Notes under the pieces: generated by a model
Databases searched by the model: none
Told to the model about the DNA's origin: nothing
Seen by the model: only the letters and a program-made list of their open reading frames with translations
Source of the DNA: Erodium maritimum
Taxonomy: Eukaryota > Streptophyta > Magnoliopsida > Geraniales > Geraniaceae
Direction of reading: 5' to 3'
Length of the DNA stretch: 64,000 nucleotides
Assembly (NCBI GenBank): GCA_963921825.1
Contig: OY997593.1
Location: 64,030,039 to 64,094,038, forward strand
Made by a program: the position numbers and the translations under genes
Shown here: positions 17,194 through 43,388 of the stretch, piece by piece
How positions within the stretch are numbered: the stretch's first letter is position 1
How the letters are laid out: every line of letters starts with the position of its first letter

Positions 17194-17208
17194 ATCGTAA
17201 CCGTAACC

Positions 17209-19694
17209 AGATACAGAAATCACAATATTTCGGACGAAACTTAAAGCATCACAAAGCGCAGCCGCTCTCTAGTCTCTGCTAGGGTTTGCTATGAGTGCAG
17301 GTTTTGCGAAGACACAGCCGATTTCCATGGAGCCTTCGAAGACGGTGACGAGTGGAGAGGAGGGTGTGGCGGACGTCGTCCACTGGGGACCGCGTCTGAT
17401 GGTGTCCGGCGAGCATGGTGGTTCCCCGTTGGTGGGGGATGTCCTCGGGCACGGGTGGGTAGAGCCGGAGGAGGACTCGGAGCGGGGCTCTGAGGCTTCG
17501 ACGGAGGGGACGCCGGTGGAGGAGATGACGCCGGTGGAGGAGGTCACACCGGTGATATCGGTTGGGGCTTGGTCGGGGAGGGAGTCGGGCCAACCGGTGA
17601 TGCAGTTCTCGGCTGCACCGGTGGCGGAGGAAGGCTGGGTGGTGGGTGGTCGGCTTCGTGCTGGACCGCCCACACTCCGCCGTACGGTGGCGAGGGGACC
17701 CAGGCCGCGCCGGCTGGGCGGTGGCGAGAACCGGAGCGGGACGGGGCTGGGCGGTGTTGATGCCGTGGAGGGGGTGTTGCATGGTACGGGAGACGATCCA
17801 GTGGTGGTCTCATCGGATTCTGTGTCCGGTTTGGGGGCGCGGCTGGGGTCACCAGAGTCGGAGGCGGAGCTGGCAGCGAGGGAGACGCCGGAGGAGATGC
17901 CTTGGCGGCGAAGGCAGGGAAAGGAGCCCATGGCGGCTAGGGTTTCGCCAGGTCGGGTCAGGGAGGAAGCGGGCTTGGGCCGAGGGTTCATGTCTGATGC
18001 CCGTAGGCCTGTTCGTCCGCGAACTGGGCTGGGCCCTCATCCGGGCTGGACTCGGGGCGGTGTGGGTGACGTAGCGAAGTGTGCCGCCCGATATGAGGCG
18101 GGCCGGGGTGCATATGGTGGGCCGGGCGGGGCGGACCCGAGGGCCAACCCGGTTCGGGTGCCTGACTCGCCTTTCGGGGGCGAGGCAGTGGGGGCCAATG
18201 GAGTTGATAGGGGGGCACAGGTGGAGCTGGACCGTCAGATGGGGGCTATGCGAATCAGGGAAATCGTGGTCCCCGTTCAGGAGGTTACGGGAAGGGGCAA
18301 CTTGTATAAGTACGCGATGGCAGCAAAGGTCCTGACCTCCAAGACCGTATTCTGGAAGTCAGTGGTGGCGCGTATGGAGGACGTCTGGGGGATGAAGGTC
18401 GAGGCAAAGCCACTGGAAGGGGGTCTTGTGGCCTTCTTTTTCAGGACGGCCAAGGAAAGGGAGAGGGTTCTGCTGGGAGAGCCCTGGTCCTTTAGAGACT
18501 CTTTGGTCCTGTTTACGGATCTGAGAGCACATATGCAGGTTAGTGACCTGCAATTCCACCATTTCTCGGTTTGGGCGCGGGTCTCAAATCTGCCGGTAGG
18601 GGCCTGGACGAGGGATGTGGGCTTCAGGGTTGGCAACGCGCTGGGCGTCTGTCAAGGTGTCGATATTGATAAGGACGGGCTCTGTTGGGGGGACTTCATG
18701 AAGGTTCGGATCCGGGCTGATATCAGGATTCCTCTGCAGAGCTAGCTTTGGTTCCGCCTCTCTGTCTCGCAGGTACGGACCCGTCTGTTAATTTCTTATG
18801 AACTTCTACCTGAACATTGCTTCGGGTGCTGCTGTGCGGATCACCTCTTTCCGGTCTGTCCGGTTGTGGGCAGCTCGAGGGGTGTATCCCTGAGAGCACC
18901 TGGGGACCCGCGATCGGCCTTGGAGAAGGCGAAGCATGGGAAGGCCACCCCGGGAACGAACTGGACCTACTTAGGTGGGTCGGACAGAGGTGTAGGGGGG
19001 GTCGGACAGAGGTGTCCGTGCTAAGGAGGCCCCACGAACACCAGGGCGAACGGAGGGGCCGGGGTGGTGGGGGCGCAGTCAAGCAGGGATCGAGGAGGAC
19101 CGGGCCGCCTGGATGGCAAGGGATGTGGCCCCGTCACTGTCTGGGAATAAGAGACTAGTGCGGGAGGAGGAGCCGGAGGAGGAAGAGGACTCGGCGGCGT
19201 CCAATGAGGTTTCACCTACAGCGGCGGGGGGCTCCAAGCACCCTCGCCTCCAGGAATGAGTCTGACAGGGGCCAGGGAGGGGTTGGTCGGTTGTACCTTC
19301 TCCCTGGTGTACAGGTGGCATTGGTACCACCAACAGCTGACATGTTACTACCCTACCACTTCGGGGTCAGCATTCCCGCGTTCAGGAGCCCTACCACTAT
19401 CACGCAAGGAAGGACGACGCACGCTGACATACCGGGGGAGTAATTGGTCCACCATTGTTTACCTATCGTCTGGTCTGCTCGATCAGTTCCTTTGGTTGGC
19501 GTACACTGTATCGGTATCTCCGGATGCTACCGCAGTCCCAAATCCCCGACCTCAAATTATGCTACAGAGCACATTTACTCTTTATGCACTTGTTTTTTCA
19601 GTTATTCCAGTTTGGTTTATGTACGACGACTTCCCATTGTGGGGTCCCCGAGTTACTTTATAATTAATGAATATTACCATTTCCTCTAAAAAAA
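17209..19694 (+). mobile_element. ORF1-only LINE, 2.49 kb, with target duplications
   Basis: The element ends in an A-tract (19688-19695). It is flanked by ATCGTAACCGTAACC (17194-17208) and ATCGTAATCGTAACC (19695-19709), 15 bp with one mismatch. Between them lie a short leader, a long ORF1 (17291 to about 19259) and about 430 bp of 3' UTR. There is no endonuclease or reverse transcriptase. The target duplication shows the copy was inserted in this form or lost ORF2 by a clean internal deletion. It resembles in layout the LINE at 41009. Confidence 0.8.
17291..19259 (+). pseudogene. LINE ORF1, DUF4283 plus CCHC zinc knuckle, interrupted
   Basis: ORF1 of plant LINEs is a nucleic-acid-binding protein that packages element RNA. 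The first 484 codons (17291-18745) are open, with a Gly/Pro/Arg-rich N-terminal half. A DUF4283-like region follows (about residues 318-430; YKYAMAAKVL, GEPWSFRDSLVLF), then a WARVSNLPVG block. A TAG at 18743-18745 interrupts the frame. Beyond it the same frame gives a zinc knuckle CX2CX4HX4C at 18818-18859. A frameshift then moves to a Glu/Asp-rich tail (EEEPEEEEDSA) ending at a TGA at 19257-19259. Large open frames on the opposite strand here are composition shadows. Confidence 0.8.
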
Positions 19695-20029
19695 ATCGTA
19701 ATCGTAACCTAAACCCTTTAAACATGGGGGTATATATATTTATATCCCTTCTAAGCAATGTTTTTACTGATAAAGAAATATATTTTTTTTGATAAGCGAG
19801 GTGAATTTCCATTGATAAAAGAAGAAGTACAATGGATACAGGAAAAATCAAGGTGATTTATCCTGCAAAAACTAAACTGCATAAATAAGAAAAGCCGAAT
19901 AAGAAAACGAACGGCTAAAAATCGGATATGACCGAACATAAATTAAAAGAAGCAACTCCTCGGGGTAAATTGCCATGTCACGAACGTAATACACTGAGAA
20001 AAAAACCCCACCCGCGTGCTCGGGTGAGC

Positions 20030-20409
20030 CAGCCCGAGAACCTGGGGAAGTATGTGCGCAGCTCGTCCCAAAGTGTAGCTCGAACATTCTCATTAGACGG
20101 GCTGTAAACGTTTATTAGGACCAGCAGGAATGGGGAACCAATCAAAATTCAAACCATAAAATAGCATGCTTTAATCGGTACAAGAGAAACCTCAGATCTC
20201 CAAATAGACAATATACCACCTGAAGCTCCATCCGCAGGGGAAATTCAATTACCCAGAAAACCGCAGCTCCTCAGGTAAGAGGGGAAAGAGGCAACCTTGG
20301 TCTCCTGCAAAAATACAAAATCCGGACGAGCTTTCCTGATGGTACAACCGATACTCCATCTCTTAAGGACGGAGTTCGTTCCTCTCACATTCCTTGAGGG
20401 GAACTTCAT
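20030..20409 (-). pseudogene. LINE ORF2 endonuclease N-terminus, truncated
   Basis: Starting with ATG at 20409, the minus strand reads MKFPSRNVRG and then PDFVFLQETK, the start of the apurinic-type endonuclease domain with its catalytic Glu in QET. Two in-frame TGA codons fall where the family usually has Trp (in GNxIS and VxILIG). The domain breaks off after LINVYSPSNE...YFPRF. No reverse transcriptase follows. Confidence 0.75.
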
Positions 20410-20598
20410 GCTATCAATTACAAAGACGGAGAGAGGGAACCGAATTCAGGTCATCCAGTTCTTCTTCATCACAGACATCCTCATAAAAATCATCTTCGTC
20501 CCCTTCTAATTCAAGTCGTTCATTGAGCTCTAAGTAGAGATTATCAAATTGTTCATGAACAGATTCAGAGACACGCAAAGCTTTGATACCGACCTGTT

Positions 20599-22205
20599 TC
20601 ACGTAGTCCCACTTCCTCTGATTCGCAGATCGCACATAATGTTGCTCTGAATTAAAACAGGCGTCTGGTATATCACAGGGGATCGAGGAGCAGCACCTTT
20701 CTTCGGAACCAGAGAAGCAGACTTGATCGGGAGAGGGGAGGATTGAATAGCACGAGTCTGTTGGTCCAAAAATATAGCAGCAAAGGATGGAGAGTTACCC
20801 GCTGGCTTTGGAGATGTACCCGAACCGGAATTGTTATTCGATTTAGAGATAGAGTCCCCAACTTGTGAAACAGATGTCAAATCAGTACTGAAGTTGCGCC
20901 CTTCTGCAACCTCATTTGAAGACTTAGGTAAGCTAATCTCCGGAAGACAAGTTTCTGGGATCTCAGTAGCGTCAATCCCTGTCAACACTAATGGAAAGGT
21001 CAACTGGTTCAATGTCAAGCTCACAGACTTATAACCACATTTGGTGTTACTGTGAATTAACACATAAGCGACATCATAAGACGCAGAGGTCGGGTTAGAG
21101 TCGCAATGATGATGCAAAAGGGTTCCCAAGGAGCTCCCTATTGCCTTGATCGTCGCTTCAGACCTTCCATGAAAAGGAATTCCTTCGACCTTAACCCATT
21201 GGATAAAACCACCCAACGTTACCAACGCACCTGAATTGCTAAGAACATCGAACCAAGGATTCAGTCTGTTCCAATTATCCCTCTCAAGTATATCACGAAG
21301 TAAAGGATCAAGCACTATAAGGAGGAAAACCCGATGTCCAAAAGATCGAAGGGCAACATCCTTTAGACCTTGAGAGTGAAGCACAAAACTTAATTGCGGT
21401 ACTTTCCAGTTATTATGTGCAAGAACCAGTATGCCCGACATTGCCAATTCCTTGGCCCCTTCAATGATTGTGCCATGAATTGGCTGAACCGAATTACTCG
21501 AATAAACTGGTTTTGGGGATGAGGAACTCTGCTTCCTACGGGATGATTTGGCTTTAGGCTTGGCATAGGCCACCAATAACTTGAAACCATCCTGAAGCGT
21601 ACCATTAAACGCCTCCACCATGGCTTCAACATGATCCGAGTGTATCCTCACAAAGCCAAAAAACTTCCCGTTGCGATTCGATTGCTTGCAAACAAAGCAA
21701 TGTTCAACCAATTCCGAGCCAAACAGATTTTTGAGCCAGGAATCGTCTTTACCCGGAGGAATATTGCAAACAAAAAGTTTGCGTCCCCCTTTACCTTCTG
21801 ATCCAATGAAACAGAGGCGACGGGAGTGGATTGAGGTGCAGGGGCTGTAGGTTGTTGCTGCTCAAAAATCTGTACAATGGACGAAACCCGACCCATACGT
21901 TGCCCTTGCGTCGGACTGGAGGGAGCTCCGGAGAGAGACGAACGGTTACCAGCCGGAGCGACGACGACCGATCGAAGACGACTCGATCCAATAGCACGAA
22001 CTGGAGAGGAGGGAACCTGGGGAGCTTTCCCTTTCCGTACGTCTCTCTTCATTCTAGGGTTCCTGAGTGCTGATCTGGGGATCCACAATAGATTCTCCTT
22101 GAGAAACATAGGAGGACGAGAATGCCGATCAGTACTGGCAGGAGAGACCTGCCGGAACAATGTCACTGAAACCGACCAAAAGAAATTCGGTAACAACAGT
22201 AACAC
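20599..22205 (-). pseudogene. LINE ORF1 with RRM domain, one frameshift
   Basis: The N-terminal part (22205 to about 21790) is Ser/Pro/Arg-rich. Near 21790 the frame must shift to continue into an RNA-recognition motif. RNP2-like KLFVCNIPPG is followed by RNP1-like GKFFGFVRI near 21665-21640. Downstream comes the plant LINE ORF1 block with FIQWVKVEGIPFHG (about 21210-21165) and a Ser-rich tail ending at 20599. RRM-type ORF1 is known for plant L1 elements, so this is a different LINE lineage from the zinc-knuckle copies at 17.3 and 41.1 kb. Confidence 0.7.
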
Positions 22206-22509
22206 GCGAACAACACCCCTTCCCTGAAAAAGCTCGCGAACAACACCCCTTCTATGAGCGCACTGGTTGAACGAAACTCAACGACGGCGAGTTCCGAGCC
22301 AAGTCAACGGCGACGAGTTCCAGGCCGACCGAGTCCAGCTTCGCGACAATACTCCGAGAACAACACAGCCTGTTCTGCAACGAGGATTGTCCCAGGGCCA
22401 ATCTGAAGCGAGCAGGAGACGAGGCGGCCGGAGAGGGTCGGGAGCGCGATGGCCGTGACGACGGCGGCGGACCCATCCCTGACTAGGGTTTCGCACGCGT
22501 CAAATTAAA

Positions 22510-23076
22510 AAAAAAAACTTTGCGCAAATGTTACTTATGTCCATCAGGGTTTTATTTGTACAGTCGTTAATCACCGCGTTGTTGTCTCTCTCCGTCACCA
22601 ACAATGCGCCTCCGATCTCGGTTCTAGCCCCTCTCTGTAATCTTGATGGTTTTCGTCTGCTTCTCCACGACATCAGTCTCCATCCCCGCCTCGGATCCCC
22701 TCTTCTGAGCAGCCCCTGTCGCCTCTACAACTATCATTGAGTCCGCCATCAGTGTATCCACCTCCTTGGCTTCCATCGAGGCCTTCTTCGCGATCTCTAT
22801 CATAGTTCTGGGTCAAATGATCGAATGATTTTGTTTTACTTTGTCTGCTTTTTTTTCTTTTTTGCAAGGTTAATGATTAGTGAGCGAAGATTCAGGGATT
22901 CTACCCAAGGATTCAAGGACTTTTACCGGGAAGGATCCCTGAATCACATCTACTATTGTCGCTTTCCTTTCGTTGAAACTGATGAGGTCAGGTTCGGTTC
23001 TCCACCAGACAAAAAAAGTCAGCTCCATGTTATCCTTTCTGAAAATTAATAAATCTGTATCTTTTGCTAAAAAAAA
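22510..23076 (+). mobile_element. Plus-strand retroelement 3' portion with A-tail
   Basis: The segment ends AATAAATCTGTATCTTTTGC followed by eight A residues (to about 23076), a plant LINE-type 3' end. AACCCTTAAACATG follows at 23077. A near copy, AACCCTTTAAACATG, lies just before the LINE cluster at 19715-19729. That suggests a target duplication and that the minus-strand LINE landed inside this older insertion. No ORF is recognisable. Confidence 0.4.
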
Positions 23077-23213
23077 CCCTTAAACATGTGTGATGGTGAA
23101 ACTACAATTAGAATTTGTAGTTTGATAATTGAATGTTCGTCTTGTTAATTTTGTTAATTTTTTTGGTAGTATGCTCTAACAGTGATTAGAAACCAATTAA
23201 TTGTCAAGTCTAA

Positions 23214-23431
23214 TAAGCATGTTATTTTTTTATAAGCTCGAAAAATTTATTAATAAGACCGATTCCAAAAAAGAACTGTAATGCCTTGATTCAAGAAGAA
23301 TCAGGGTAAAAGTCAAACGGTTACAAATGAGCTCCAATAATAAGAGCTAAAAGGCCAAGTATTTTCCTAAAAACGAAACAAGGAACAAAAAGAAACTGAA
23401 AAGGTAACCTTCCAATCCTAAGCATGTTATT
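23214..23431 (-). mobile_element. 5'-truncated LINE 3' end with 13-bp target duplication
   Basis: TAAGCATGTTATT occurs at 23214-23226 and 23419-23431. The 192 bp between, read on the minus strand, end in AAATTTTTCGAGCTTATAAAAAAA, a LINE tail. This is a dead-on-arrival copy with no coding sequence. Confidence 0.75.
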
Positions 23432-23451
23432 TATTTATTAGAGTTTGTATT

Positions 23452-23570
23452 TTTTAGCACAATAACGAGCAAATTTTATTGATAAAAAGTGGAAAGGTCG
23501 TATAGGTCGTACATGCTTGTGAATAATTGAGATAGGATGAGATACAACTCCAGTAACGGCCGAAGCACTG
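23452..23570 (-). mobile_element. LINE 3' end fragment, minus strand
   Basis: On the minus strand the end reads TATCAATAAAATTTGCTCG, then GTGCTAAAAAA, similar to other LINE tails here. Its upstream extent cannot be fixed and coding sequence is not seen. Confidence 0.45.
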
Positions 23571-26500
23571 ATCCTATAGTTAATAACCCGGACAGATACA
23601 TGGAGAGTGTAGGGGGTCGATCCCTATTCTAACTGTGTTGAGTAAGAATGATCCTATGAGTTCCCCTCGTCTCGACTTGATCGATACTGGTGTGTCGCAC
23701 TAGGCGACCAAGGAGTATGTTAGGGAAAGGAGGGGGATGGGAACCAGACCACATCTGGTTCAGTGGGGCTGAGGTGTAACTCCTCGGTAACACCCCAAGT
23801 TACCTTAAGTGACTCATGGTGACCCGCGAGACAATTGACCATGCCTCGCTTTAGTCCTCTCGAGGCCATATACCGTCTAGGTGTTTGTGGATTCTATGGT
23901 GTCTTGGGGGAGGGTCTCGGAGCCAACCATCTCCGGGGATAAGACGTACTACTGAAGCACCACCGGTCCCTATACCGGGGGGGGGGGGGTGGGGTGGGGT
24001 GGGGTGGGGGGTGGCTCTATGGCCCTAGGAGGGGAAATGTACCAATTGGGTTCTTCTCAGAGTATCCTTTGTATTAGATACAATGATTTCTTAGTCCCTT
24101 GATCATGTTTTCTCTTAGCTTCGACATAGGAATTGTTCCCACCTCTCATGTCTTGATAAGGACGGATTTCTAGTGTCACTTAGAGTCGCATCACTATTGG
24201 CGTCGTCCATGTCTCCTGGGTAGAATCATGATCCGTAATAGGCTAAAAAAAGGTACGATCATAATGGTGGATTGGCCAGCATTGGTAGGGATCATCTGAG
24301 GAGGACCAACGATCCTGACCAGCTCGTGTTCCTGCATCTGCCGTCTGGTCTCTCGCACCATTGGTGCAGACCATGATTCTCTCTTGGCTAGATCGACTCC
24401 TGTGATTGGGAAGACGATGTTACGGGTAGGGAGGGATCATAGATGACGGGCGTGCCTTAATATTTCCCCGCTATCCTCTATCGACATCAACTGGGTCGGA
24501 GATCCATTGGGGACTGAGTTCTTTTGCGGGGGCCGCCAAAATCTGACGGCGTGGTGGTTGGTATCGTGGTTCCGATATGACATGATGAGTGGCTGGATGG
24601 GGATATACCATTTTAAGTGATAGGAGACGACGATTAGTGGAAAGGGCGTCGGATCCACCCCGTGAGATGATCTGAGATTCCTAATGGGCTGATCGGGCCG
24701 TGGTTTGGCGCCGAACGAATAGGTGGGACGTTGGGGAAAATACCGGTGACCAAGGTGATCTAAAATCCATGGAGGGTGGCTGGTCGGAGAGAATATGTGA
24801 CTCAAAGAGTGATCGACGGAAGATGAAATGGCTTAGGGGAAAGGGAGAGTTTGAAAGTTTGAAAGAACTCTAGGCGGCATAGATTGTTTATTTGATATTT
24901 GTATTAGAATTTGTATTAATTTATATGAATTTTGTATATTTTAATTAATTAAATACAACTTATTATCTAACGAAACATTAATTCTTAAAAATTCCAAATC
25001 AAATATCTATAGTAAACCCGCATATCTCAAATCAATACTCTGAACTAAAAGCCCAAATACTCGCATTGCAACTTGAATTCTTTAAATCAATTAGTTGGTT
25101 ATATTTCCTTGAATTAATTATTTGCTTACAATAATTAAATACAATTTCTTATAACCAATTTTTTCCCTTTAGGGTTTCTTATTCTCTTTTTTTTCTCGTT
25201 TTCAATATGTCGCAGATCGTCATCTGAGGAGCCTGTCTTAGTCCTCAGCCTCCCCTCCAACCTTCTGTCCATCCACTACCGTCTTAGATCACCTCGAATT
25301 GGAACGATAGGATTATTGGTGTCCACTACCATCATCAAATATTCTCGTCTGCATCCACCATTATTGGCGTCGGATTTTACGTCTTCAATATTCCCACCAC
25401 CGGTATCACCGGAACCACCACCACTACGACCCTCCCTGGCCCACGCCTCCTATTGCGATCCATGAACCAACACTATCACCAGGAGGACGAGAGAAATATG
25501 GATATGGCCCTACCATGGAACCCGTCTCGGGGAGATTCTTGTGACAATACTCCCACCTAATCGGAATCTATTATTACGAGTGGCATAAATGGTCGCTTCT
25601 TTAGGAGAAACCGCTATGGAAGGATGTCGAGGCCTAAGCAACGTCCACTAATAGACCGCACACTAACAACACGAGTAAGTCAAGAGCAACCTCGGGGAGG
25701 AGCACTACTGAATAGACATATCCACGAAAAGGCTCCCTGACCTCTCGAGGTGTCCCTAAATGAATGGAAGAGATGACCGGTCTTGCGACTATGGTTACCA
25801 CATGAGGAAGAAGCGGGTCTCCCTATTGTACAAACCCCCAACGCTAGTGTCGCAAGGGTGGAACTACGCTGTCCAAGAACCAGAATTAGTTGAACCACAA
25901 TCCAATTAGGCTTCCCCACAAGAAAGGCTCAGGCAACGAGATAGGCATGGTCTCGCTCAATAGGGCCATCTACGCGAGGATCCCTTGCCCCCCGACCTAC
26001 CTCATGACGATTAGGAGAAATTGCTGGGTTTACAGGTGTGGCTGACGTTGGAAGGTGAGGATGTCACCCCCCCCCCCTCGAGGTTTCAACAACAGTAGAT
26101 GGAAAATCTTCAATGGTCCTAAGTTTTTAGGGAACACAAACACAAGCCCTCATTGTCCTTACGGGGGTAAATGCAAGGTATACCACAAACTCTGGTCCTG
26201 ATGGAACAGTTTCGAGGCACAAAATGCCTCGTGGGTTACCATGAGTCCTTTAAGGCATTCTGGGGTGTTTATTAGGACACACATTCCGGTCTTTGTGAAT
26301 CAGATACATTCTGATTCCTAACCTCCTCATTTCCTAGGCATATTCCTTGATCGAACGTTACGACACAACTACATCGATGAAGTTGAGACGGGGAAAGTCT
26401 CATGGAATCACAACGCCAAGCACAGTTGGAATAAGGAATCACCGCCTACCATCTCCCTAGTTTTAACCGGGTTTTTAGATATTGGATCAGTGTTTCAGTT

Positions 26501-26640
26501 GTCACCAATACTGTATCTCATCATTTCCGTTAACTATCATAATTGTACGGTCTTCCTGACCATCTTATTTCTATATCAATAAAAGTCACACAAGTATACT
26601 ACAAAAACTAATATTTCTTATATTACTATTATTTCTAAAA
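23571..26640. repeat. Decayed repeat region with short broken frames
   Basis: GC-richer stretches (23571-24840 and 25200-26460) flank an AT-rich core. No frame is long or recognisable. The end near 26490 shares GGATCAGTGTTTC with the decayed region at 13440-15570, so both may be remains of one family. A G-run block lies at 23977-24013 and a C-run near 26067-26077. Confidence 0.4.
23977..24013 (+). repeat. G-rich low-complexity tract
   Basis: Thirteen G residues are followed by four further G runs (4, 4, 4 and 6) separated by single T. The composition would allow a G-quadruplex. Its length may be uncertain from sequencing. Confidence 0.8.
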
Positions 26641-26649
26641 AAAATGGGT

Positions 26650-27930
26650 TTTATCTGCCTCTGCTCCGCTCTCGATTAGGTTCCACGTCGTTGTTGACAC
26701 TCTTCCGAAAAGGCTGCAATTACAACCTTTTCCTTTCCCCTTTCACCTCTACTCGATATTCAGATTTTGGCACGAAATTGCAATGGATTAGGATCTAATT
26801 AAACCTCACTCTCATCGCCTAAGCTTCTCCTCCGTCAACATCGCCGACCGTCCTCTTCCTATTGGAGACTCTAATGATCGATGAAGCCATGCTTTCCATT
26901 CCCTAACAAAACCTAGAATTCCATGGGGGCACATGGGTTCCGTAATGGGTCTTTGAGGAGGAATTTCATGCTATGGACGATTTGGATTATGATGGAAATG
27001 AGATCCTTCTCGGTGAATCATATGGATTTTTAGGTCAAGTGTCCACATCATGATCGGGTTCAAATAACGGGCATTTATGGGGAACCAAGGAGCCTTGTTG
27101 CGTCGTTTAACGAGTAAGGATTAGGGTCGTTGGGTGTTTATTAGAGATTTTAATGGAACCCTCGATCCTAACGAGATTACTAGGGGGCATCCATATCCAT
27201 CTCATCTTATCGAGGCATTCTGGGAAGCTGTGATTGATATTGACATGGTCGACGTCTCATCGCAAGAGTATGACTTCATATGATATAGGGGTAAGAAGCA
27301 GGGCAGCCTTGTGGAATCTCGTGTGGATAGGGCTTTGTTTCCTCGACCTCTCTACCACTCTCTACATGAGTTGCAAGTTGGGGTACTACTACGTTGGATC
27401 ATATGACGATTCTCTTTACTTTGAATGTCTCTCCCCTCGGCCTTTTCTATGATATTTCCATTTTGAGAGTGGGTGGACCCAAGACTCATCTTACGTGCTA
27501 CTAATCCAGGCAGAATGAGATACCACCCCCACCAACTAGATTTCCTCGCATCTTTAAGGCATTGAATAGACCTTGGACCAATAGGGAAAGGATATCCTTT
27601 GGGAAAACTGTTATCACATCCGATAGTGTCAGTGGACCATTGCCATCCTCAACACTTGCACAAACATATCTGGTAAGAACAGAACGGAGGACGTTTAACG
27701 ATCGGTACGAATAAAAATCATAAGGACTTTTTGCGTCAGAGGGAGAAATGGAGATCGAATCTTCGATTGTCAGCATTGGTCCTCAAAATCAAAGACTCCA
27801 TTCGAAAGATTGACTTTCAACTATGAAGAGAGCCCGAATTAGATTGTTAAATCAAAGAAGGAGATTGCAAGGGAGGCCAGACTAGATGCTTTAATATGAA
27901 CATCACATGAAAATAAGGCTATCCACAATG
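26650..27930 (+). pseudogene. LINE ORF2 endonuclease relic
   Basis: Broken frames together spell the endonuclease part of a plant LINE ORF2: ITGIYGEPR (about 27065), the VFIRDFNGTLDPNEITRG equivalent of the usual GDFNE block (about 27138-27190), and YRGKKQGSLVESRVDRAL (about 27283-27340). A linker with EKWRSNLRLSALVLKIKD follows. Numerous stops and shifts make it non-functional. Neither boundary carries a tail or target duplication. Confidence 0.7.
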
Positions 27931-35100: not shown

Positions 35101-35229
35101 GATAAGCTTTTTGGGCCCTGAAAATGTCCCGAATGACTTCATGAGTCTTCGGTTGACTTTTCCGGCCAAAAGTCAAACTTGATTAGAAATCGCCGGCTAT
35201 ACCGGGGTCTACCAGGGGCGGTTCTTACA
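32176..35229 (-). mobile_element. Solo Gypsy-type LTR, 3054 bp, minus strand
   Basis: On the minus strand it starts TGTAAGAACCGCCCC at 35229 and ends GGGGCGTGACA at 32176. Both termini match the family ends, and there is no internal region or second LTR. It sits inside the plus-strand LTR of a related element. The flanks share TTTGTTT (32169-32175 and 35231-35237) with a one-base offset, so a target duplication is plausible but not exact. A GC-rich CCGTG block lies at 34128-34360. Confidence 0.85.
34128..34360 (-). repeat. CGGACCGTG-type degenerate GC-rich repeats in LTR
   Basis: Imperfect repeats of CCGTG, GGCCCGG and GTGCCGG elements occur in about 230 bp. They create overlapping open frames in several phases (Arg/Gly/Thr-rich), which is composition rather than coding. 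Confidence 0.6.
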
Positions 35230-35597
35230 ATTTGTTTAATCGTACTAATTGGGACTTTTGTTGGAAAAGCGTGGGTCCTTTTTACTTTAATACTTTTTCC
35301 TACTGAGCGTAAGCTCACCCTCTTCGTGTTTAATGTTTTTACATGTTTCATTGCTGATTAGGCGTAGAGGACGTTTCAGGGCTCGGGAGCTCGTGGAAGG
35401 TCCGTGTGATGTTTATGTTAGAGATGTACTCTTTTGTCTTACTAAACTATGTTTTAAATAGTTCAGATTTGAGCGGTTGACTCATGCTTTATTTATTGGA
35501 ATTGTTATTTTGAAACCTAACATTTGTAGTTGAATTGTGTTTAAAATTCACTTTTATTATTTTCCGAGTTCACGTCTCGAGTCCGGTCAAAACAGGA

Positions 35598-37038
35598 GAT
35601 GGATACATCCAACATGGACCCGCAGGCAGCGGCAACCCATCGGTTGTTTCTGGATGGCATGACCAAGAGAATGTCGGGGTTGGTCTGTAAGTTGTTCAGT
35701 TTTTTGTTGTAAATACCAAAATCTTGTTTCTGTACTGGGCTTTTCAATATTAATCTATGTTATTTATGTTTCAGGATGTTGGGGAGATTTATCGTTCTAT
35801 TGCACAACGCTAACAACATTGCACCAGAGCTTTACACCAACATGACCAACATTGCACCAATTATGTACCACTGAATTACGACTACATTAGGGAAGTGGAA
35901 GAGGATTTAATCGAGTTTTTTAGTCAAATAATTATATTTTATTGTACTTTCCATTGATGACTTACATTTGTAGTTATCAAACTTTTTAAACATTCAAACC
36001 CGTCAACATTGCAATGAAAAAACCAAGCCAAACACTACACGTTATGTATTCCAAGGCCAATCACTGTTTACACGCCATTGTGTACACAAAAAGATTGGAC
36101 TCTGCTCTTTAGGTGAATCAGCGTCTATTTGGAATGGATATTGATAGTTTAATATGAAAAATAAAGCGATTTAGACCGAGATTAGACCAATTCGATCTAA
36201 TCTCACTGTGGATATTCTAAGAGTTACTGTCTCCATGTTTAAAATATACGGACCTTATTATCACTAGACAGTCATATTGAGGGTCTTTGCTCATAAATAG
36301 AAATTCTGGAGTCAATGGACCTTTAACAACAATATCATATGAGTTGCAGTTATTCCCAATGTTGTTGGATGACAAGTGTTTTGTTTTATATGGACATAAT
36401 GGGTTGCTGCACTAACAAAAGGTGAAGAGTATAATGTCAAGCAATGCCTTCAAAGTTCAAAGTTCACAACATGTTCGAGAACAATTATTTAAGGAAAAAA
36501 AATGAACCAATGGGATCATCTTTTTCACAAGGGGAAAAAACTTGACCAAGAAACTTCCTGTAATCTTCTTTATCTCGACAGCTCTCAAATCCTACTTTTG
36601 CCATAGTTCTTTCCAAGTTCTTCAAGATTCTGACATAACACCAACTTAATTTCATGTCTCCTTAACTTCATAGCAGTAAAACTGATATTTTTCTTATGTC
36701 GACTGATCCGATAGTCAAAAAATTCTCTCGTGTTTTTATGTTAAAGGTTCGGATCAGAATTACACTATACAAGAACAACATTTCCTTGCTTCCTTGTTGA
36801 TAAAAAAGAAAACTTATTAGAGTGATACTAAGTCATTATTGATCAATGATTATTACAATATACATTGGAACCAAGTACTATGCTTAATACAACTGCAAAT
36901 TCTTAACCTCAGCTTGAGCTACACATTTTTTGGGTGAACTTATTGAGCTACCTTTTCAGTTCAACCAGAAAGGCCTCGTCCTCGTACTAAGAAAAAAGAA
37001 AGTCATGGTTAGAGACTCGAACCATGTGAAGGTCTCAG
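35598..37038. other. Intergenic region downstream of the CCT gene
   Basis: Just past the broken LTR an ATG frame (35599-35709) reads MDTSNMDPQAAATHRLFLDG and then reaches a stop. I do not recognise it. The remainder is AT-rich and contains the presumed 3' UTR of the CCT gene near 36800-37038. No bounded element was found. Confidence 0.45.
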
Positions 37039-38185
37039 TCAATAGCCATTGTAATGGAACTGGTTTTGACCATAATAATGGTTCATAAATGGCCATCCTT
37101 CTTCAAGCAGCCCATACTCGTCTTCTTCTTCGTCTCTAGCTGAGCACGAGGCTTTGGGAGTCTCGCCGGTCTCGTCGTTGCGCGCGAACCTGCCACGTAT
37201 GCGGGGACGGTTGTCCGCTAGCGTTTTTCGGCATGCATACTTTGGAATCAGAACAGAGACATATTCAGATCGATCGAAACACGTAGCTGAATCAAAATGT
37301 CGTCTTCTCCGACGAATCTTGTTCAGTTTAGACATAAAAATGGGTAATGGAGAGTTTACCTTAATCGTCTTGTTGAAGTTCCTCTGGTTTCGCTTCGCTC
37401 TGTACTTGAGAATCTTCTCTTTCCTCTCCTCTGCACTGTACCGCCCCACCTTGAAGCTCGATTCCTCCATGAACGAGATCTCTGATGCCAAAGGGCTCGA
37501 TAGCGACCTCTGTGTCACCTGAATCGTTCTCATACTCTGAATAAACACAAAAAAAGAAAGATAAGCATCTTCTTCCATCACAACACCATAACACAAAACA
37601 GAGGGACAGAGAACTGACTTGTAAGTCGCCGGTGCTGCAAACCCTCCTCATATGTCCGGCCAAAAATCCGGTTTCCGGCGAGCTCATGGCTTGGCTTTGA
37701 AAATTGGGAGATTCTACGACGGTATCGAATCGGGGCTGGAAGCAAAAACCAGTCTTTTCTCGATCAAAGTAGTTGCTGCTGTAGCTCCTCTGCATCATCT
37801 TCCCCACATTCTCGCCGCCGCTGTAACTGTGAGGAGCGAACAAATCCATTTGAAAGTCCTCAGCTTTGACCTCCAAACCAGACGAATCTCCATACCCATT
37901 GCCCAAATCCGAACCATTGGACACATCCTGCAACTGGGTCGACTGATAAAGGCTCAGATTCTCCATCTGGTAGCTCGGAGGTAGACCGGCGACGAACTGG
38001 TCCAGAAAATTAGGGTCGTCGAAATTGATCTCCGGGTTTTGCTTGTCATCGGAATTTGGTAAAAAGGAATCAATAATGGGAGAGAAAGAGTCGGAGTAAA
38101 GCTGCATGTCTGCATCGGAGGGAACCATGTCTGGGCTCGGATGGAGAAACAGAGATTCATCAAACACGTAGAGATCAGAAGACAT
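37039..38185 (-). CDS. CCT-motif transcription regulator (ASML2/CMF type), 3 exons
   Basis: Exons on the minus strand are 38185-37619, 37536-37360 and 37239-37039, with GT-AG introns and phase 0 joins, giving 314 aa. The start MSSDLYVFDESLF matches the N-terminus I recall for Arabidopsis CCT-motif-family proteins without B-boxes. The CCT motif spans about residues 226-268 (ERKEKILKYRAKRNQRNFNK, then YACRKTLADNRPRIRGRFAR), split by intron 2. CCT supports nuclear localisation and protein or DNA interaction, and relatives regulate sugar-responsive or flowering genes. There is no B-box, so it is not a full CONSTANS protein. The acidic tail after residue 268 ends FHYNGY. All parts look intact. Exact function is inferred from family only. 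Confidence 0.9.
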
Positions 38186-38758
38186 TTGGAACCCAATTCT
38201 GTATCGATTGAACTACTCAAGAACTAGAAAGAGGGAGAGGATGAAAAAAGGCAAAACAAATACCAAAAAAAACACTGTTTTTTCCTTCTCTATGTTCCTC
38301 AAATTTATTGCTGTTTTGTCTGAGCATTAGCTTTTGAAACCGCCATGACACTTGTTGCTCTGTTTTTGTTTGATCAACGGCTCCAGGGAACAGAGGAGGA
38401 AGAAGACAACCGAAGAAGAGAAAATGCCACTCTGTTTTTTCAAATAGCCAGAGACCACTCCACTACTGCAATTCCTGTATAAAAAGAGCCCAGATATTTA
38501 TTTAATCTCACCCGATACTTCTCCATATTTATACATTCCACCTACTAATTCTTTCTTATTTCATGATATCCCTGATACTTTTCAAAATTTGTAGATTCCA
38601 TTTCTACCACTATGTTAGTTTCTCTGAGCATCGCCTATGATATGAAACCATAGGACGATTGACGCTAAAAGCGAATACCATCATCGCCTTTGTGTGCGAT
38701 TTTTTTTCAGAATCTTCGTCTCCAAAGCCTCAGCTGGAGTTCTGTGTTCGGACCGGCC
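38186..38758. promoter_or_regulatory. Shared upstream region of divergent CCT and PLAC8 genes
   Basis: The two start codons face away from each other across 573 bp. A plus-strand TATAAAAAG (38475-38483) could serve the PLAC8 gene. A minus-strand TATAAATA (about 38533-38526) could serve the CCT gene. If both are used, the transcripts would start within a few tens of bases of each other. A CAG acceptor-like site at 38708-38710 might end a 5' UTR intron. TATA assignments are by eye. Confidence 0.45.
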
Positions 38759-38811
38759 ATGGGGTCGCAGGAGTATCTCTACAAGATGAAGCTCGGCCAG
38801 AACTATCACAA
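38759..38811 (+). CDS. PLAC8-family protein, first coding exon only
   Basis: ATG at 38759 opens 17 codons plus two bases: MGSQEYLYKMKLGQNYH, then a GT donor at 38812-38813. This matches the N-terminus I recall for plant PLAC8/cell-number-regulator-like proteins (MGSQ-YLYKM-LGQ-Y, then NLWHTDL). The expected second exon encoding NLWHTDL and the Cys-rich domain was not found by reading up to 64000. Position next to the CCT gene agrees with Arabidopsis gene order. Either intron 1 exceeds 25 kb or the gene is broken by the insertions downstream. Confidence 0.6.
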
Positions 38812-41008
38812 GTAACCTTGGTGTAGTTCCTAATTTTTCTTTTGTGTCTTGTTTTGGGTTCTGATTTCGTTTCAATTTTGCTTCTGCTCTGTGGTGTTTC
38901 ATCAGTGGAAATTTCCTGTTATTTTATTTGTTAGTGTACTTCTGTAGATCTTGGGTGTTCTTCGTGACGTTCAATGCTTCTTGACTGGACTAGCACTTAG
39001 CTAGGGTTTTGACTATCAAAATTTTCATGCTCGATGATATGTTTTTTTTCCTACTTCATTGAAATGTTGAGTTTATTATAATTTGGGTTTCTTTAGTATA
39101 TGACGTGGAACTTTTATTCGTATTAATAATTTAAAATAAAGAATACATATGTGAGATCTGATAAGAGGCCGAGACTCGGCTTATAAACAAATTTCTGAAC
39201 GTTAATCTTATAACTACGATACTCGGCTAATCCAAAGGAAACCGTTGTGAGGCAATCCTAAATGTGATGGCTGATCAGACACAATTGGTTGTGGTCATTT
39301 CTCAACTCGACCTGAAAATTCTCATGGTAAATGATTTGGGGCATTTGATGGTATAACGGGCATTTAGGGAGAACACCAGGAAGTGGGGGAATCAGGATGT
39401 CCGGTTTACACCGACCTTAGCAGGGTAATGCGTGCATTCCCATACACACCTTGTTGCTCGTCATTCGACTCATTTTGCTGGGGCCAACAAAGGCTCTTGT
39501 TTGTGGTCCATGACATCTCAACACTGCCACCGATTTTTCAGTCGCTGTTGTCGACACTTCGGGGAGGACACCACCCTCTTCCAGAATCGCCCACACTTGC
39601 AAAGCCAGCCACTAATCCTGATTTTCATGATTCAGATCGGGAGGTTGAGGGGACTTCGTGTGGATATCCTTAGTGAACGGAATCAGGTATATCTTGTTGT
39701 TGGAGACTTTCCCGTCCTCCTGCTGAAATTGGTGGTCCGTGAAGAAAAGGAAGAGGCATGGGGCCATAGTGAGGCCACCACAAGCGGTGGTGCTATAGCA
39801 GATCGTCTGTTATTTTTGCCGTCGATCGTTCCGAGATGGACTCCTAAGCAGAGATACGAGATGAGATAAAGAAGGAGGTGGTGGTGATGGTGGAGTGGTG
39901 GGAGATGGACAGACTGTTGTCCGTGAGGGAGGGCATTGTATGTGATGTGAAGGGATGACTACGGCGACAAGAATAAATGGTGGCATCGCTGCTGGTGCAC
40001 GAGAACCGACTAGAGCTTTCGAGACGAGAGCAATTGATGTTCTCACTCTCACTGGCGCACTAGGGTTGGCTGCCATGGGAAAGAATTATTTCCTAACCAC
40101 TTAGGTTACGTATAGATCAATGAGGTTTAGTTCAATATAATTTGGGTATTTTGTTTGTGTAGTTTACATTCTTGCAGTAGTCTCTTATTATTTTAGTGTT
40201 TTAGATTTTATTTTACATAATTAATGAGTTGTATTCATCTTTATACGAAAAGGTTATTCGTGATGTCAAATAAGAAGTTGATAATATATTGATGCCTTAA
40301 GTTAAAGTGAGTGTCCTATATCAGAAGTGTGCGGATATATTAACCACTTAATAAACATATTGATGCATCCACCTATCAACTTGAGCTTCTGGGCTGGAAT
40401 GTGTTTTGACATGTTATCAGAGCTGGTTTGGGTGCCCTCACTTAGAAGGAATGTTAAAGTATATGTCCCATAACGAAAATTTGTAAATTCATTGATCACT
40501 TAATAAACATATTTTGATGAGCTTTGACAATAACCTCATTCTTGAACTATAAATCAAACCTAGAGAACAATATAGATAGAATTCTTCTCCAAAATCCATA
40601 AGGTTATAATAATTAAGGGAGGGAAATGATCGGTTAACTGACCATCCCCTCCAATAAGAGCCCCAAATCGGAACTGGTCGATCAGATTCTTGACATCGAA
40701 ACCTGTAAACTATAAAATTTTCCAAACATTGAACGATCAGATCAATTTCCTGTTTTAACTTATCATCAAGAAATGACTCTTGGGCCTCTAAAATGGGTCA
40801 GATCCATTGGGTCAAGAGGAAGCCCAACTGGAATCTAAACACAAAAAATGCTTAATTCAACTATAAAGTAAAGAACAACACATAGGTATTTTTTTTCCAG
40901 CCAAAAACCACTAAAGAAGGATAAAAAAATTACCTAAAAACTAAAATTTAATCATTTCTTAATGATAAAAAATAAATACATGCCATGAACTAATATCTCA
41001 AAAATAGA
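38812..41008. other. Putative PLAC8 intron 1 or intergenic, with old repeats
   Basis: No exon is recognisable. Near 39380-40080 a GC-richer block has broken frames in both directions. Its minus-strand frame ending at 40076 begins MAANPSAPVRVRTS but has no known domain. The rest is AT-rich. Confidence 0.4.
40302..40529 (+). mobile_element. Candidate miniature LTR element
   Basis: Two related segments (40302-40411 and 40452-40529) share TTAAAGT, CACTTAATAAACATAT and a TTTGACA end. The first is followed at once by TGTTATCAGAGC, one mismatch from the initiator tRNA-Met primer site. Only about 40 bp separate the pair. The segments are unequal in length and no target duplication was found. Confidence 0.3.
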
Positions 41009-41057
41009 AAAAAAAAACAGCTCTCCAATTAACTTTTCTGAGGTTCCTCTCTAACCT

Positions 41058-43064
41058 ATGTGGGTTCTCACCGCCGCCGCCCTCTTTCACCCTCTCCGAC
41101 CACCTGCCTCCAGTCACTCCACCGCCCCTCACTCATACCACTCCTCTCTCCAGCCAGTGCCATCCAGCCGAGCTTGCTCTCCGTTGTCGTGGTCCGCCTT
41201 CGAACGCCTGTGCCTGGGCTTCCACCGCCGCCACAGTCTCCCATCGACACCAACCGCGCCCATTTCCGATCAATCGATGTCAGATCTGCCTCATCCCCAT
41301 CTCCATGAGTCGGAAATGGTCAACTCCGACCAAATCCACTCACATGCAGAGGTCCATCGCGACCTCGGGGCCTCCGTCCAGCACCATGCCCGTCGCGCCG
41401 TTGATCTCCCGCCGTTGCTCGGTCCGACTTCTGTCTCCCCTCGGCAGCCGCCACACACGACGGATCTGAAGGACAAGCCGGGCTTGTCCTCGAAAGATTT
41501 GAAAGACAAGCCGGATCTGACCTCGTCCATCACGACGCCTCTGGTCGTCGGCGATGCCACTGCTCCACCGGAGTTCTGTCCGGCTTCCACCGGACTGCCG
41601 TCAACGCCGAGGGAGGCCTACCGGGATTTGATCACCCTTCCCCGGCCAATCCAGTCTCCGGTGAGTACCCACCGTCCTCCTTCGACCGAGCGGGGACAGA
41701 TTGCTAGCCCCATCTGCCCGAGGGCTGGCCGGCCAGCGGGGACGCCTTCGGAGGTTCAGGCAAGCCGCATCTCCCCAATCCCGGATTGGGAGGATGAGGA
41801 TGAGGAATTGGTGGTCTCGGACGAGGGGATCCCATTATTTACGTCGGGATCGTATGAGTTCTCTCTGGCAGCGAGGGTTGCAGGGAACGGATCGCACAAC
41901 CAACACATCGTTTGCGGGATGATGTTGCGGAATTGAAAGGTTGCGGGGATACGGGTGGAGTTCCTGTCCCCCGACGTCACGGGTTATCACTTCCCGTCTG
42001 CCAAGTCCATGGAAGATATTCGCCATAAGGGTCCCTGGAACTTTAAGGGCTTTCCCATCCTCCTTGAACCGCTTCGGCATTTCGATCGAGCTGAAGACAT
42101 CAGCTTCAACCACGTGGAGCTCGGGGTCAGGGCACTGAATATCCCGGGAGGAGCGAGGAACTCGTATATTCGAGGTCTCGTGGCGGGCAGTATAGGCACA
42201 CAAATCCTGGCGGCCCCAATTCTGACGGTCCGACGGGAGGACAGACATCTTTGGTTGCGGGTCTGTATGGAGCTGTCTCGGCCACTGCGGCGCAGAACCA
42301 GACTTCGTTTCCCAGGTACAGATTCCTCTATTGTGATAGATCTGCAATATGAGAGAGTGGTGGACTTTTGTCGCAGGTGCGGCATGTTGACACACAGGTT
42401 ACCGAACTGTCAGACCCTGCTGCAGGGGATTGGCCGTGAGGAAGTCCGATATGATTGGTCTATTCTGGTTCCCCGGGACTTGGACGTGGATCAGCTGCTC
42501 CAAAGGGTCTGGGAGACACCTCGTCCAGTATCACATCCGGCGATCACATACCTCCTGGGCGATCTAACCCTGAACTCTATGGTCCGTTCTAGGGAGATTA
42601 CCATGGGCGCTGAGTCGTCCAATGCAGGCACTCTGAAGCCTGACTTTCTGGCTAAGGTTAACCACGAAGGGTTAACCACTATCTTGCAGGGGGATGGCCA
42701 TGGAGCACCCAACCCGCCACCCAGGCCCACAAAGCCTGACTTCCTGGCTAACATCCACCCTACTGCTGGCCCTGAGATCCGAGCTCCCCCCGGATTCAAT
42801 GCGATGATGAGGAAGGAAGAGGAGACAGATCCACGGGGCTACCCGGTAGGCCCTCAGGGGAGTCTAGGCAAAGGTGGACCCAGCAGGGGAAAAGGAAAAA
42901 TGACCACCCTGAAGACCAGAAGTGGCTCGTTGTATTCCCGTCCACTGGAGACAAAGAAGCAGAGGGGCAACCCGACTGATCAGCAACAACCCTGGTTTCA
43001 TCCATTTACGGAGGAGGAGCGAGCTGATGGGGCGGAGGTCCAGAGGCCTCTGATGGAGGAATGA
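41058..43064 (+). pseudogene. LINE ORF1, DUF4283 plus CCHC knuckle, one nonsense codon
   Basis: A single 669-codon frame runs from ATG at 41058 to TGA at 43062-43064, broken only by a TGA at 41934-41936. The N-terminal ~270 residues are Pro/Ser/His-rich. The DUF4283-like region includes GPWNFKGFPILLEPLRHF (near 42030-42083), followed by LWLRVCMELSRPLRRRTRL. A zinc knuckle CX2CX4HX4C lies at 42369-42410. The C-terminal ~200 residues are basic and Pro/Gly-rich. No ORF2 follows. One stop in over 2 kb implies a fairly young copy. Confidence 0.85.
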
Positions 43065-43388
43065 TCTGCCCCAGCAGAGGTGGGTGGAGTTGGCCCCAGA
43101 CTATACTTACAGACCCGGGACAGCCATTGCTGGGAGGTTCCGGGCAGTATGCATCATCAGCACCAGTTATTTCCGTTTATTGCTATTACTTTTATTCTTG
43201 TTGGGACTATTTACTTTATGTTGGTTTTGGAACTTGGTTTATTTTCCCCCGTTATGTTGAAACGATGGTAGGGAGTTGTCTTGAGTTGTTGCCCACGAGT
43301 TTATGTGGGCTAAAATAATGGGTCCATGAGTGGCGGGCTTGCTATGGTCGGCCCGGACAAACACCTGGAACCCGAGGCGGTCACACCT

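Follow-up and report, generated by a model that had tools for sequence, protein, structure and literature searches.

Two probable families of ORF1-only LINEs of plant L1 type in the genome of Erodium maritimum

In a 64,000-nucleotide stretch of the Erodium maritimum genome (contig OY997593.1; the whole stretch is called the window here), two LINEs very probably belong to two families of ORF1-only elements of plant L1 type that are long-lived and high in copy number, and the one protein that these encode is of an RNA-binding type. Each is about 2.4-2.5 kb long, with a DUF4283/zinc-knuckle ORF1, a 3' UTR, an A-tail, target duplications and no detectable ORF2, as the first-pass annotation had described. 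For these two copies, its likening of the elements to mammalian HAL1 is supported by a junction shared between copies, separate target duplications and a low ORF1 dN/dS.

Anatomy of the two ORF1-only copies

Copy 1 consists of the following parts.

17208-19694, + strand: copy 1, ORF1-only LINE of the zinc-knuckle type, from 5' end to A-tail
17193-17207, strand not applicable: 5' target duplication, ATCGTAACCGTAACC
19695-19709, strand not applicable: 3' target duplication, ATCGTAATCGTAACC
17291-19259, + strand: ORF1 (broken), ending in ATGA
19260-19687, + strand: 3' UTR, with a core at about 19350-19430 that is similar in L008, L019 and L018

The A-tail is A8, and the first ~49 nt of the element seem specific to copy 1. 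Its target duplications are identical at 14 of 15 positions, a match reached by 0 of 2000 random pairs. ORF1 has a stop at 18743-18745 and, further on, changes frame close to a tandem duplication of 22 bp (18974-19015); this duplication was one of the short repeats that were all a repeat search returned. Pfam places DUF4283 at about 18371-18712 (55.5 bits), and a CX2CX4HX4C knuckle was read by eye at 18818-18859 (zf-CCHC_4, 15.1 bits, below the cut-off). A 151-aa stop-to-stop frame across the end of the element (19208-19663) was considered as a second gene and rejected, since by eye neither L008 nor L019 preserves it. Folding four 3' UTR stretches of copy-1 type with RNAalifold gave 54 pairs, 9 of them with compensatory change, and a covariation term of only -1.75; we claim no structure.

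Copy 2 is in two parts, with an LTR retrotransposon between them.

41009-43388, + strand: copy 2, ORF1-only LINE of the zinc-knuckle type, part 5' of the LTR-element insertion
63320-63380, + strand: end of the copy 2 3' UTR and A-tail
40993-41007, strand not applicable: 5' target duplication, ATATCTCAAAAATAG
63381-63394, strand not applicable: 3' target duplication, ATATCTCAAAATAG, one base shorter
41058-43064, + strand: ORF1, ending in ATGA, with one in-frame stop at 41934-41936
43065-43388, + strand: 3' UTR, first part
43389-63314, strand not applicable: LTR retrotransposon splitting copy 2, not part of it

The target duplications of copy 2 agree at 11 of 12 positions ungapped, which 5 of 2000 random pairs also reach. 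Pfam finds zf-CCHC_4 at ~42270-42413 (39.8 bits) and a sub-threshold DUF4283 at ~41943-42206. The LTRs of the element inside copy 2 (43389-46328 and 60364-63314) are 96.7% identical, and the 5-bp duplication CACCT flanks it on both sides. This insertion contains gag_pre-integrs, rve and RVT_2 domains, and within it lies a nested LTR element (48449-56919) whose own LTRs are 99.2% identical.

In each copy, one of the two ORF1 domains is thus sub-threshold (the knuckle in copy 1, DUF4283 in copy 2); in L052, of the copy-2 family, zf-CCHC_4 scores 33.7 bits. With DUF4283 and a knuckle in ORF1, an A-tail and target duplications, both show the features of the plant L1-type zinc-knuckle group. No EN or RT domain was reported in the three frames after ORF1 at a limit of E<=5, at which HMMER filters nonetheless drop most weak matches. 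Neither copy has the EN-RT ORF2 of an autonomous plant L1; the third LINE of the window, copy 3, keeps a stub of it only. Both have the ORF1 that had first been called long, but stops break it in each, together with a frame change in copy 1. The repeated layout also stood, but in two different families: copies 1 and 2 have no DNA similarity and their ORF1s are about 22% identical, which rules out a single family.

A shared junction and separate insertions

Loose first-look matches gave thousands of candidates per family, of which the best 40 were scored for each. In the copy-2 family (best 40 of 2159 candidates), the junction of ORF1 and 3' UTR is uninterrupted, with no ORF2-sized insert, in 39/39 other scored places; these are 83-95% identical to copy 2, and 35 are near full length. 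In the copy-1 family (best 40 of 4237), the same holds for 38/39 places, the one exception ending short of the junction; here identity is 85-98%, 38 places reach the 3' end and 27 start at element position 35-58. The junction recurs at about 69-70% DNA identity in L021 and L022+L008, which come from an unselected 292.5-kb sample. From the best scored copies, an element of either family has a short 5' UTR, an intronless ORF1 running to ATGA, a 3' UTR of roughly 375-430 nt and an A-tail.

Most of the copies sampled are also separate insertions. Seven of 10 have clear, exact target duplications of 12-17 bp, all different, where 90 mismatched pairs gave a maximum of 9; in the other three, the exact flank matches (5, 9 and 9 bp) are not clear. 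A 3' end like that of copy 2 is found in L021 and in five sampled copies (L042, L044, L046, L048 and L050), the last ending in a T-rich run with no clean A-tail. The listed copies are spread over all of contigs C1 to C9, and no relatives were found in plasmids (tblastn) or in viral contigs (pattern scans).

Copy 3, an internal-deletion derivative

Copy 3 lies on the opposite strand.

19781-22510, - strand: copy 3, internally deleted LINE of the RRM type (RRM and DUF4283 ORF1, endonuclease stub, 3' UTR)
20026-20412, - strand: APE endonuclease stub (ORF2 N-terminal), followed by the deletion junction and then the 3' UTR

The first-pass annotation was right that this copy is of RRM type and lacks RT, but the endonuclease stub means that it is not ORF1-only, and placing all three copies in one class was rejected for this reason. 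RRM_1 scores 20.2 bits, just under the 20.7 cut-off, and DUF4283 17.5 bits, below its cut-off; across 136 aa, the stub shares 41.9% identity with ORF2 of the full LINE L016. A convincing target duplication was looked for and none was found. Matches of its relatives break near element position 2477/2492: one on C1 at 111.63 Mb has an ORF2-sized interval of 3174 bases between the matched parts, and one on C2 at 19.508 Mb has an RT match 662 bases past the matched part. We take copy 3 as related to copies 1 and 2 but a case of its own, derived from an RRM-type LINE by internal deletion. The HAL1-like reading is weaker here, given such ORF2-bearing relatives, although the exact deletion is common to one other scored copy, which is on C5 and 98% identical.

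Copy 3 bears on the idea that all of these are ordinary LINEs in which ORF2 went missing separately each time, through a deletion or template jumping, so that the likeness in layout is coincidental. Internal deletions are known in non-LTR elements, as described for Hebe (PMC2861651), and the relatives of copy 3 partly fit such an account. For copies 1 and 2 it is contradicted by the junction, present in nearly every other scored place and in relatives as distant as 69-70%, and even the copy 3 deletion recurs on C5. ORF2 loss is not unique to each copy in either family, and we consider independent losses extremely improbable as an explanation of copies 1 and 2.

Selection on ORF1 and conservation of the 3' UTR

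To what extent is ORF1 constrained in elements that have no ORF2? We compared copy 2 with L051, L052 and L021, and copy 1 with L022+L008; L051 and L052 had been chosen for absence of stops. Over about 400 codons, dN/dS between these few copies lacking ORF2 is 0.17-0.28: 0.17 (0.11-0.25) for copy 2 and L051, 0.28 (0.19-0.41) for copy 2 and L052, and 0.17 (0.12-0.25) for L051 and L052, whose ORF1s are both open at dS 0.44. Against L021, values are 0.20-0.23 at dS 1.3-1.4. For copy 1 and L022+L008, dN is 0.20 with dS saturated, 195/300 bootstraps being finite and dS lying beyond the reliable range. A frame-shift control gave dN/dS of 1.21-1.95, and third positions are in excess (85 vs 24 and 27). 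In two other copies, ORF1 is stop-free over 665 and 635 codons. By these substitution patterns, ORF1 is under purifying selection between copies without ORF2. The 3' UTR is conserved too: that of copy 2 is 76% identical to that of L021 along its whole length (288/377), a JC distance of 0.283 (0.231-0.352) that is about five times less than the ORF1 dS of 1.43.

Constraint of this kind also bears on whether the copies are processed retrocopies, that is, mRNAs of one or a few domesticated DUF4283/zinc-knuckle host genes pasted by LINEs and never replicating themselves. Retrocopies would have the same anatomy (intronless, with an A-tail and a target duplication), and both DUF4283 and zf-CCHC_4 are over-represented among plant pseudogenes in Table 1 of PMC7935947. 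However, copies from a single parent are expected to diverge mostly neutrally, and the low dN/dS of L051 and L052 at dS 0.44 calls for several sources, each under constraint. Among the 68 listed matches to the copy-2 ORF1 (best 66 of 12193 candidates), none is seen to be split by an intron; one on C5 that falls into several pieces is split by overlapping frame changes. L021 has the same 3' UTR at dS about 1.4, the layout occurs in two very different families with thousands of loose first-look candidates each, and the ATGA described below fits a LINE origin. We therefore regard retrocopies as quite unlikely.

ORF2-bearing LINEs in the same genome

ORF1 ends in ATGA in copies 1 and 2 and in L008, L019 and L021. 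In a zinc-knuckle LINE with ORF2, this motif is the overlap of the ORF1 stop with the ORF2 start, and its retention in ORF1-only copies points to two-ORF LINEs as the ancestors of the families. One zinc-knuckle-type LINE runs on into an open EN-type ORF2, read only through the endonuclease. RT-bearing LINEs with long open frames are also present (e.g., 1272, 1235, 1230 and 1223 aa, the match stop-free). Possible helpers are the RRM-type LINEs with RT and the zinc-knuckle LINE with EN-type ORF2.

The existence of such zinc-knuckle LINEs makes it conceivable that the families of copies 1 and 2 are no more than the non-autonomous bulk of a live two-ORF family, one that has their ORF1 and 3' UTR and whose autonomous members supply the constraint and repeatedly spawn a single deleted form. 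The places listed are the top-scoring ones, and whether the same 3' UTR occurs in a two-ORF relative was judged from the best 40 of 2159 and the best 40 of 4237 candidates only. Yet 77/78 other scored places cross the junction without ORF2 and the 78th stops before it, and 0/111 listed copies (78 by DNA, 33 by ORF1 protein only) have any of the 111 listed RT matches, the best 111 of 16208 RT candidates, at a distance of 15 kb or less. In the 292.5-kb sample, EN/RT follows 0/6 zinc-knuckle-like elements, and four LINEs have ORF2 sequence together with an ORF1 that can be recognised, all four being RRM-type. This sample comprises 29 stretches, each 10 kb long and placed at a round position on contig C1, not randomly drawn, plus one 2.5-kb extension; the census excludes L006 and L020, whose RRM-type ORF1 matches are near a stretch end, and three short RRM-only matches that may be host genes (L016 8.1-8.3 kb, L022+L008 4.2-4.4 kb and L026). 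Finally, for the junction to be shared beyond a dS of 1, the identical deletion would have had to occur many times. A live two-ORF source is thus unlikely, and the two ORF1-only families are the reading we prefer.

Discussion

We now have evidence of selection on ORF1 in families with no copying enzyme of their own, and such families probably borrow it from relatives that are complete. How could this work? A Pol II transcript of an ORF1-only element would be translated into ORF1p, whose DUF4283 and knuckle would attach it chiefly to the RNA that encodes it. Two-ORF LINEs of the same genome would supply EN and RT (ORF2p) in trans; from the sequences at hand, we infer mobilisation in trans by full LINEs. 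ORF2p would make a nick in the target, start reverse transcription from the A-tail and perhaps recognise the conserved 3' UTR. A need for ORF1p in cis would account for the retention of ORF1; action of ORF1p in cis does not follow from dN/dS by itself. The ancestors would have been two-ORF LINEs that lost the span from the ORF2 start codon to the 3' UTR.

It is tempting to generalize. There is, in our judgement, an even chance that ORF1-only LINEs are an old class in plants, one that has kept moving over a time in which synonymous sites became saturated but ORF1 and the 3' UTR were conserved. This would be a split system, in which the satellite makes its ORF1p in cis and EN/RT come from other L1 lineages (perhaps RRM-type ones among them), with at least three lineages in one genome (copy 1, copy 2 and the RRM type with an endonuclease stub). 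In a plant genome with two large, very different families in which ORF1 is selected though the copying enzyme cannot be made, a question becomes testable in plants: why does a LINE parasite need its own ORF1p, and is it ORF2p or ORF1p that acts in cis? There is also a warning for annotation, as DUF4283/zinc-knuckle "genes" may in many cases be neither host genes nor decayed LINEs but ORF1-only elements that move.

No plant case of ORF1-only LINEs was found in the literature searched, where the known analogues are HAL1 and HeT-A. SINEs, LARD/TRIM and other non-autonomous retroelements likewise rely on the enzymes of another element and, to our knowledge, have no conserved protein under selection. 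The non-autonomous forms named in the portion of a plant TE review drawn on here (PMC9033089) include LARD, TRIM, SMART, MITE, SNAC and SINE, and an ORF1-only LINE is not among them. Celine of poplar, as described in PMC11288735, is a two-ORF L1 of 6114 bp; it has a DUF4283 ORF1, an A-tail and target duplications in common with copies 1 and 2, whereas the EN-RT ORF2 is found in Celine only. The EKA family of powdery mildew includes very many loci derived from LINE ORF1 (PMC4641428), but EKA genes are described there as co-opted effectors, with a truncated ORF1 that lacks the nucleic-acid-binding half, and not as a mobile ORF1-only class.

HeT-A of Drosophila telomeres has one structural ORF1 and no RT, and its retrotransposition relies on another element (PMC4700185). 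The single ORF1 and the lack of RT are as in the plant families. In contrast, HeT-A inserts at chromosome ends, with EN dispensable, and the plant copies are dispersed over C1 to C9 with target duplications, not restricted to telomeres.

HAL1 was reportedly first presented by Bao and Jurka in 2010. Its ORF1p is of the mammalian type. HAL1 (half-L1) is derived from mammalian L1, codes for ORF1p only, is non-autonomous and has several origins (PMC5753468). The copy-1 and copy-2 families also code for ORF1 without ORF2. Unlike HAL1, they have a DUF4283/zinc-knuckle ORF1, in two lineages about 22% alike; in copies 1 and 2, Pfam finds no domains other than DUF4283 and zf-CCHC_4, and no homology to mammalian L1 ORF1p. 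A further difference from HAL1 is that selection on ORF1 is directly evident in the plant families, in comparisons of copies that are themselves ORF1-only.

Anatomy of the ORF1-only LINEs

Two LINEs in the window have an ORF1, a 3′ UTR, an A-tail and target duplications and lack ORF2, as the first-pass annotation had described them; Pfam domains and flanking sequence agree with that description.

ORF1-only LINEs of the window
Copy 1: 17208 to the A-tail at 19694, + strand; 15-bp flanking duplication with one mismatch
Copy 2: start 41009, interruption after 43388, end 63380, + strand; flanks ATATCTCAAAAATAG and ATATCTCAAAATAG

Copy 1 has a DUF4283 domain (55.5 bits) and copy 2 a zf-CCHC_4 knuckle (39.8 bits). 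In each ORF1 the other of these two domains is sub-threshold: DUF4283 of copy 2 is weak (22.4 bits, under its cut-off), and the copy-1 knuckle scores 15.1 bits, with a readable CX2CX4HX4C pattern. Pfam reported no endonuclease (EN) or reverse transcriptase (RT) domain in any frame downstream of either ORF1. Both ORF1s are lightly broken; within that of copy 1, a 22-bp tandem duplication (18974-19015) lies close to the frame change. The two ORF1 proteins are ∼22% identical (E 5e-10), and the copies have no DNA similarity in common.

The interrupter of copy 2 is a 19.9-kb LTR retrotransposon with LTRs 96.7% identical and a 5-bp duplication, CACCT. This and other features of the window (plant DNA by its LINE and gene families; C6:64030039-64094038 of a 763,042,520-base assembly in 40 contigs; GC 43.6%) are as follows.

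Other features of the window
1-1463: inverted copy of the inner LTR, 94%
12308-12802: palindrome of ∼500 bp, matching its reverse complement at 85% identity
37039-37647, minus strand: CCT motif (48.7 bits) in an open frame, probably part of a CCT-type host gene
43389-63314: outer LTR element, interrupting copy 2
48449-56919: inner LTR element nested in the outer one, with copia-type domains and LTRs 99.2% identical

Copies 1 and 2 represent families of fixed layout

We ran six genome-wide searches, five by sequence and one by family, scoring only the best candidates in each, and drew a sample of 30 stretches from the same genome (292.5 kb, including 15,429 N). When copy 2 (2380 bases) was the query and the best 40 of 2159 first-look candidates were scored, the junction between ORF1 and 3′ UTR was crossed uninterrupted in all 39 other scored places, at 83-95% identity, and 35 of these were near full length (start ≤64, end ≥2368). 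With copy 1 (2487 bases; best 40 of 4237 candidates scored), 38 of the 39 other scored places crossed the junction and reached the 3′ end, at 85-98% identity; in the sole exception the match stops before the junction. The common junction that the first-pass annotation had proposed to look for is present, and copies 1 and 2 are members of families with a fixed layout.

More distant relatives were found in the sample. L021 matches copy 2 at 68.6% across ORF1 and 3′ UTR and has, by eye, its own target duplication, AAGTATCCAACTCCAA. An element spanning L022 and L008 (L022+L008) is 70% identical to copy 1 and shows, by eye, an apparent decayed duplication. L019 keeps the 3′ UTR and, by eye, an apparent ORF1 start, with no match in the middle of ORF1; its copy-1-family element lies at ∼6860-8400 (minus strand), with the DUF4283 part unmatched, and is a further, shorter deletion form of that family. 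Only part of the 3′ UTR remains in L018.

For five further copies of each family, 10 in all, we compared the two flanks. The longest exact repeats were 5, 9, 9, 12, 12, 12, 13, 15, 15 and 17 bases, and no two had the same sequence; among 90 mismatched flank pairs used as a control, the longest was 9, attained by 5. Separate target duplications, which the annotation had also proposed to look for, are thus clear in 7 of the 10 copies and not clear in three: the two 9-base repeats are not significant alone, though in the expected places, and in the C3 copy at 73.3 Mb the flank comparison showed no duplication. Nine of the 10 copies (flanks L031-L050), among them two whose duplication is just 9 bases long, have 6-47 private nt separating the 5′ duplication from the point where the conserved sequence begins; in copy 1 this stretch is ∼49 nt (17208-17256). 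It could mean that transcription began further upstream in each source, or it could be filler from 5′ joining.

Constraint on ORF1 and conservation in the 3′ UTR

Two copy-2-family members have a stop-free ORF1, L051 (665 codons) and L052 (635 codons). From DUF4283 to the C-terminus (∼400 codons), dN/dS was 0.17 for copy 2 and L051 (bootstrap 0.11-0.25), 0.28 for copy 2 and L052 (0.19-0.41), and 0.17 for L051 and L052 (0.12-0.25). These 0.17-0.28 ratios bear out selection on ORF1 from few sequences. Choosing L051 and L052 for a stop-free ORF1 biases toward constraint on their own recent branches; copy 2 and L021, with one stop each, give the same picture despite that choice. Comparisons against L021 gave 0.20-0.23 (dS 1.3-1.4), and the N-terminal part of ORF1 gave 0.45-0.52. 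A shifted-frame control of copy 2 against L051 and L052 gave 1.21-1.95, and the differences between copy 2 and L051 by codon position (24, 27, 85) show a third-position excess. For copy 1 and L022+L008 (245 codons; dN 0.20), dS of ∼2.8 is saturated, so the ratio of 0.07 is not usable as a number. Stop-free frames were few among the 68 matches listed from a protein search with the copy-2 ORF1 (best 66 of 12,193 candidates scored): four near full length, two partial and one small piece, the rest having 1-6 stops. Because the ratios are low while inserted copies decay unconstrained, we infer that the source lineages needed ORF1.

The 3′ UTRs of copy 2 and L021 are 76.4% identical (288/377; JC distance 0.283, 0.231-0.352), against an ORF1 dS of 1.43 in this single pair. 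L008, L019 and L018 each match a 66-78-base core of the copy-1 3′ UTR at 84-88% identity; outside it, L018 has diverged. This conservation suggests that the 3′ UTR may carry a cis-acting signal. A specific 3′ end has been proposed as a requirement of one plant L1 lineage, others recognising poly(A) (PMC3747384).

Origin and candidate helpers

RT-bearing LINEs are abundant in this genome (best 111 of 16,208 candidates scored), several with frames of 1223-1272 codons. In the sample, all four LINEs with ORF2 sequence and a recognisable ORF1 are of the RRM type; L012 and L009 hold ORF2 pieces, with no ORF1 found in the sampled stretches.

Sample LINEs with ORF2 sequence and a recognisable ORF1
L016, L013: RRM type, by Pfam
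L029: RRM type, most of ORF2 deleted, by similarity to L016
L028: RRM type, ORF1 end read by eye

None of the six zinc-knuckle-like sample elements (L021, L022+L008, L019, L002, L013 at 754-1600, and L018) has EN or RT downstream, counting L002, identified by tblastn alone, and L018, which has no ORF1. Zinc-knuckle LINEs with ORF2 do exist. Of five zf-CCHC_4 matches with equal scores, we sampled the sequence downstream of one (L053) as far as the endonuclease: there the ORF1 end leads via ATGA into an endonuclease frame (Exo_endo_phos, 54 bits) that stays open for 285 codons or more. The five matches, with open frames of 501-502 codons (C3:66572034, C2:8896496, C6:68451509, C7:48616617 and C8:9950862), are probably a young two-ORF LINE family. 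The ORF1-only elements end ORF1 in the same ATGA as L053, which makes descent from zinc-knuckle two-ORF LINEs of that kind the most likely origin. Their present helper may be of either type, zinc-knuckle or RRM.

Copy 3 and its relatives

The third copy (minus strand) had been noted as lacking RT. It has an RRM/DUF4283 ORF1, both domains sub-threshold in Pfam, and after it the beginning of an APE endonuclease that is 41.9% identical over 136 residues to ORF2 of a full sample LINE. Only this EN start is kept, and relatives bearing ORF2 exist, which qualifies its place beside copies 1 and 2. Among the best 40 of 415 first-look candidates scored, one C5 place (98%) has the copy-3 junction in common, and at 22 places the 5′ part and 3′ end matched as separate pieces. 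The pieces on C1 at 111.63 Mb (93-95% identity) are 3174 bases apart, far enough for an ORF2 to fit; in a C2 relative for which the search reported no 3′ piece, an RT match begins 662 bases past the matched part. Copy 3 is thus a deletion derivative of two-ORF LINEs. At the other 21 of the 22 places merely 49-696 bases separate the pieces, a share that is not a genome-wide proportion, since limited downstream search reach would favour short forms. In seven of these (69-72% identity), ORF1 and an endonuclease stub precede the 3′ UTR, and the joins fall at comparable positions; the other 14 have 115-696 bases between matched parts.

Copy-3 relatives with the stub layout, 49-80 bases between pieces
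C1:35033055-35035350
C9:31516794-31519089
C5:44614908-44617207
C1:142833970-142836219
C8:68188484-68190734
C1:104248299-104250561
C1:135464738-135466360

Among the relatives listed, forms too short to hold a full ORF2 are common, and RRM-type elements with an endonuclease stub are apparently a further non-autonomous group.

Comparison with known systems

Among the open-access papers listed, judged by titles and abstract starts, we found no report of plant ORF1-only or non-autonomous LINEs, a result limited to that literature. HAL1 and HeT-A, while not relatives of copies 1 and 2 in the strict sense, are nearest to them in layout and in supposed way of working.
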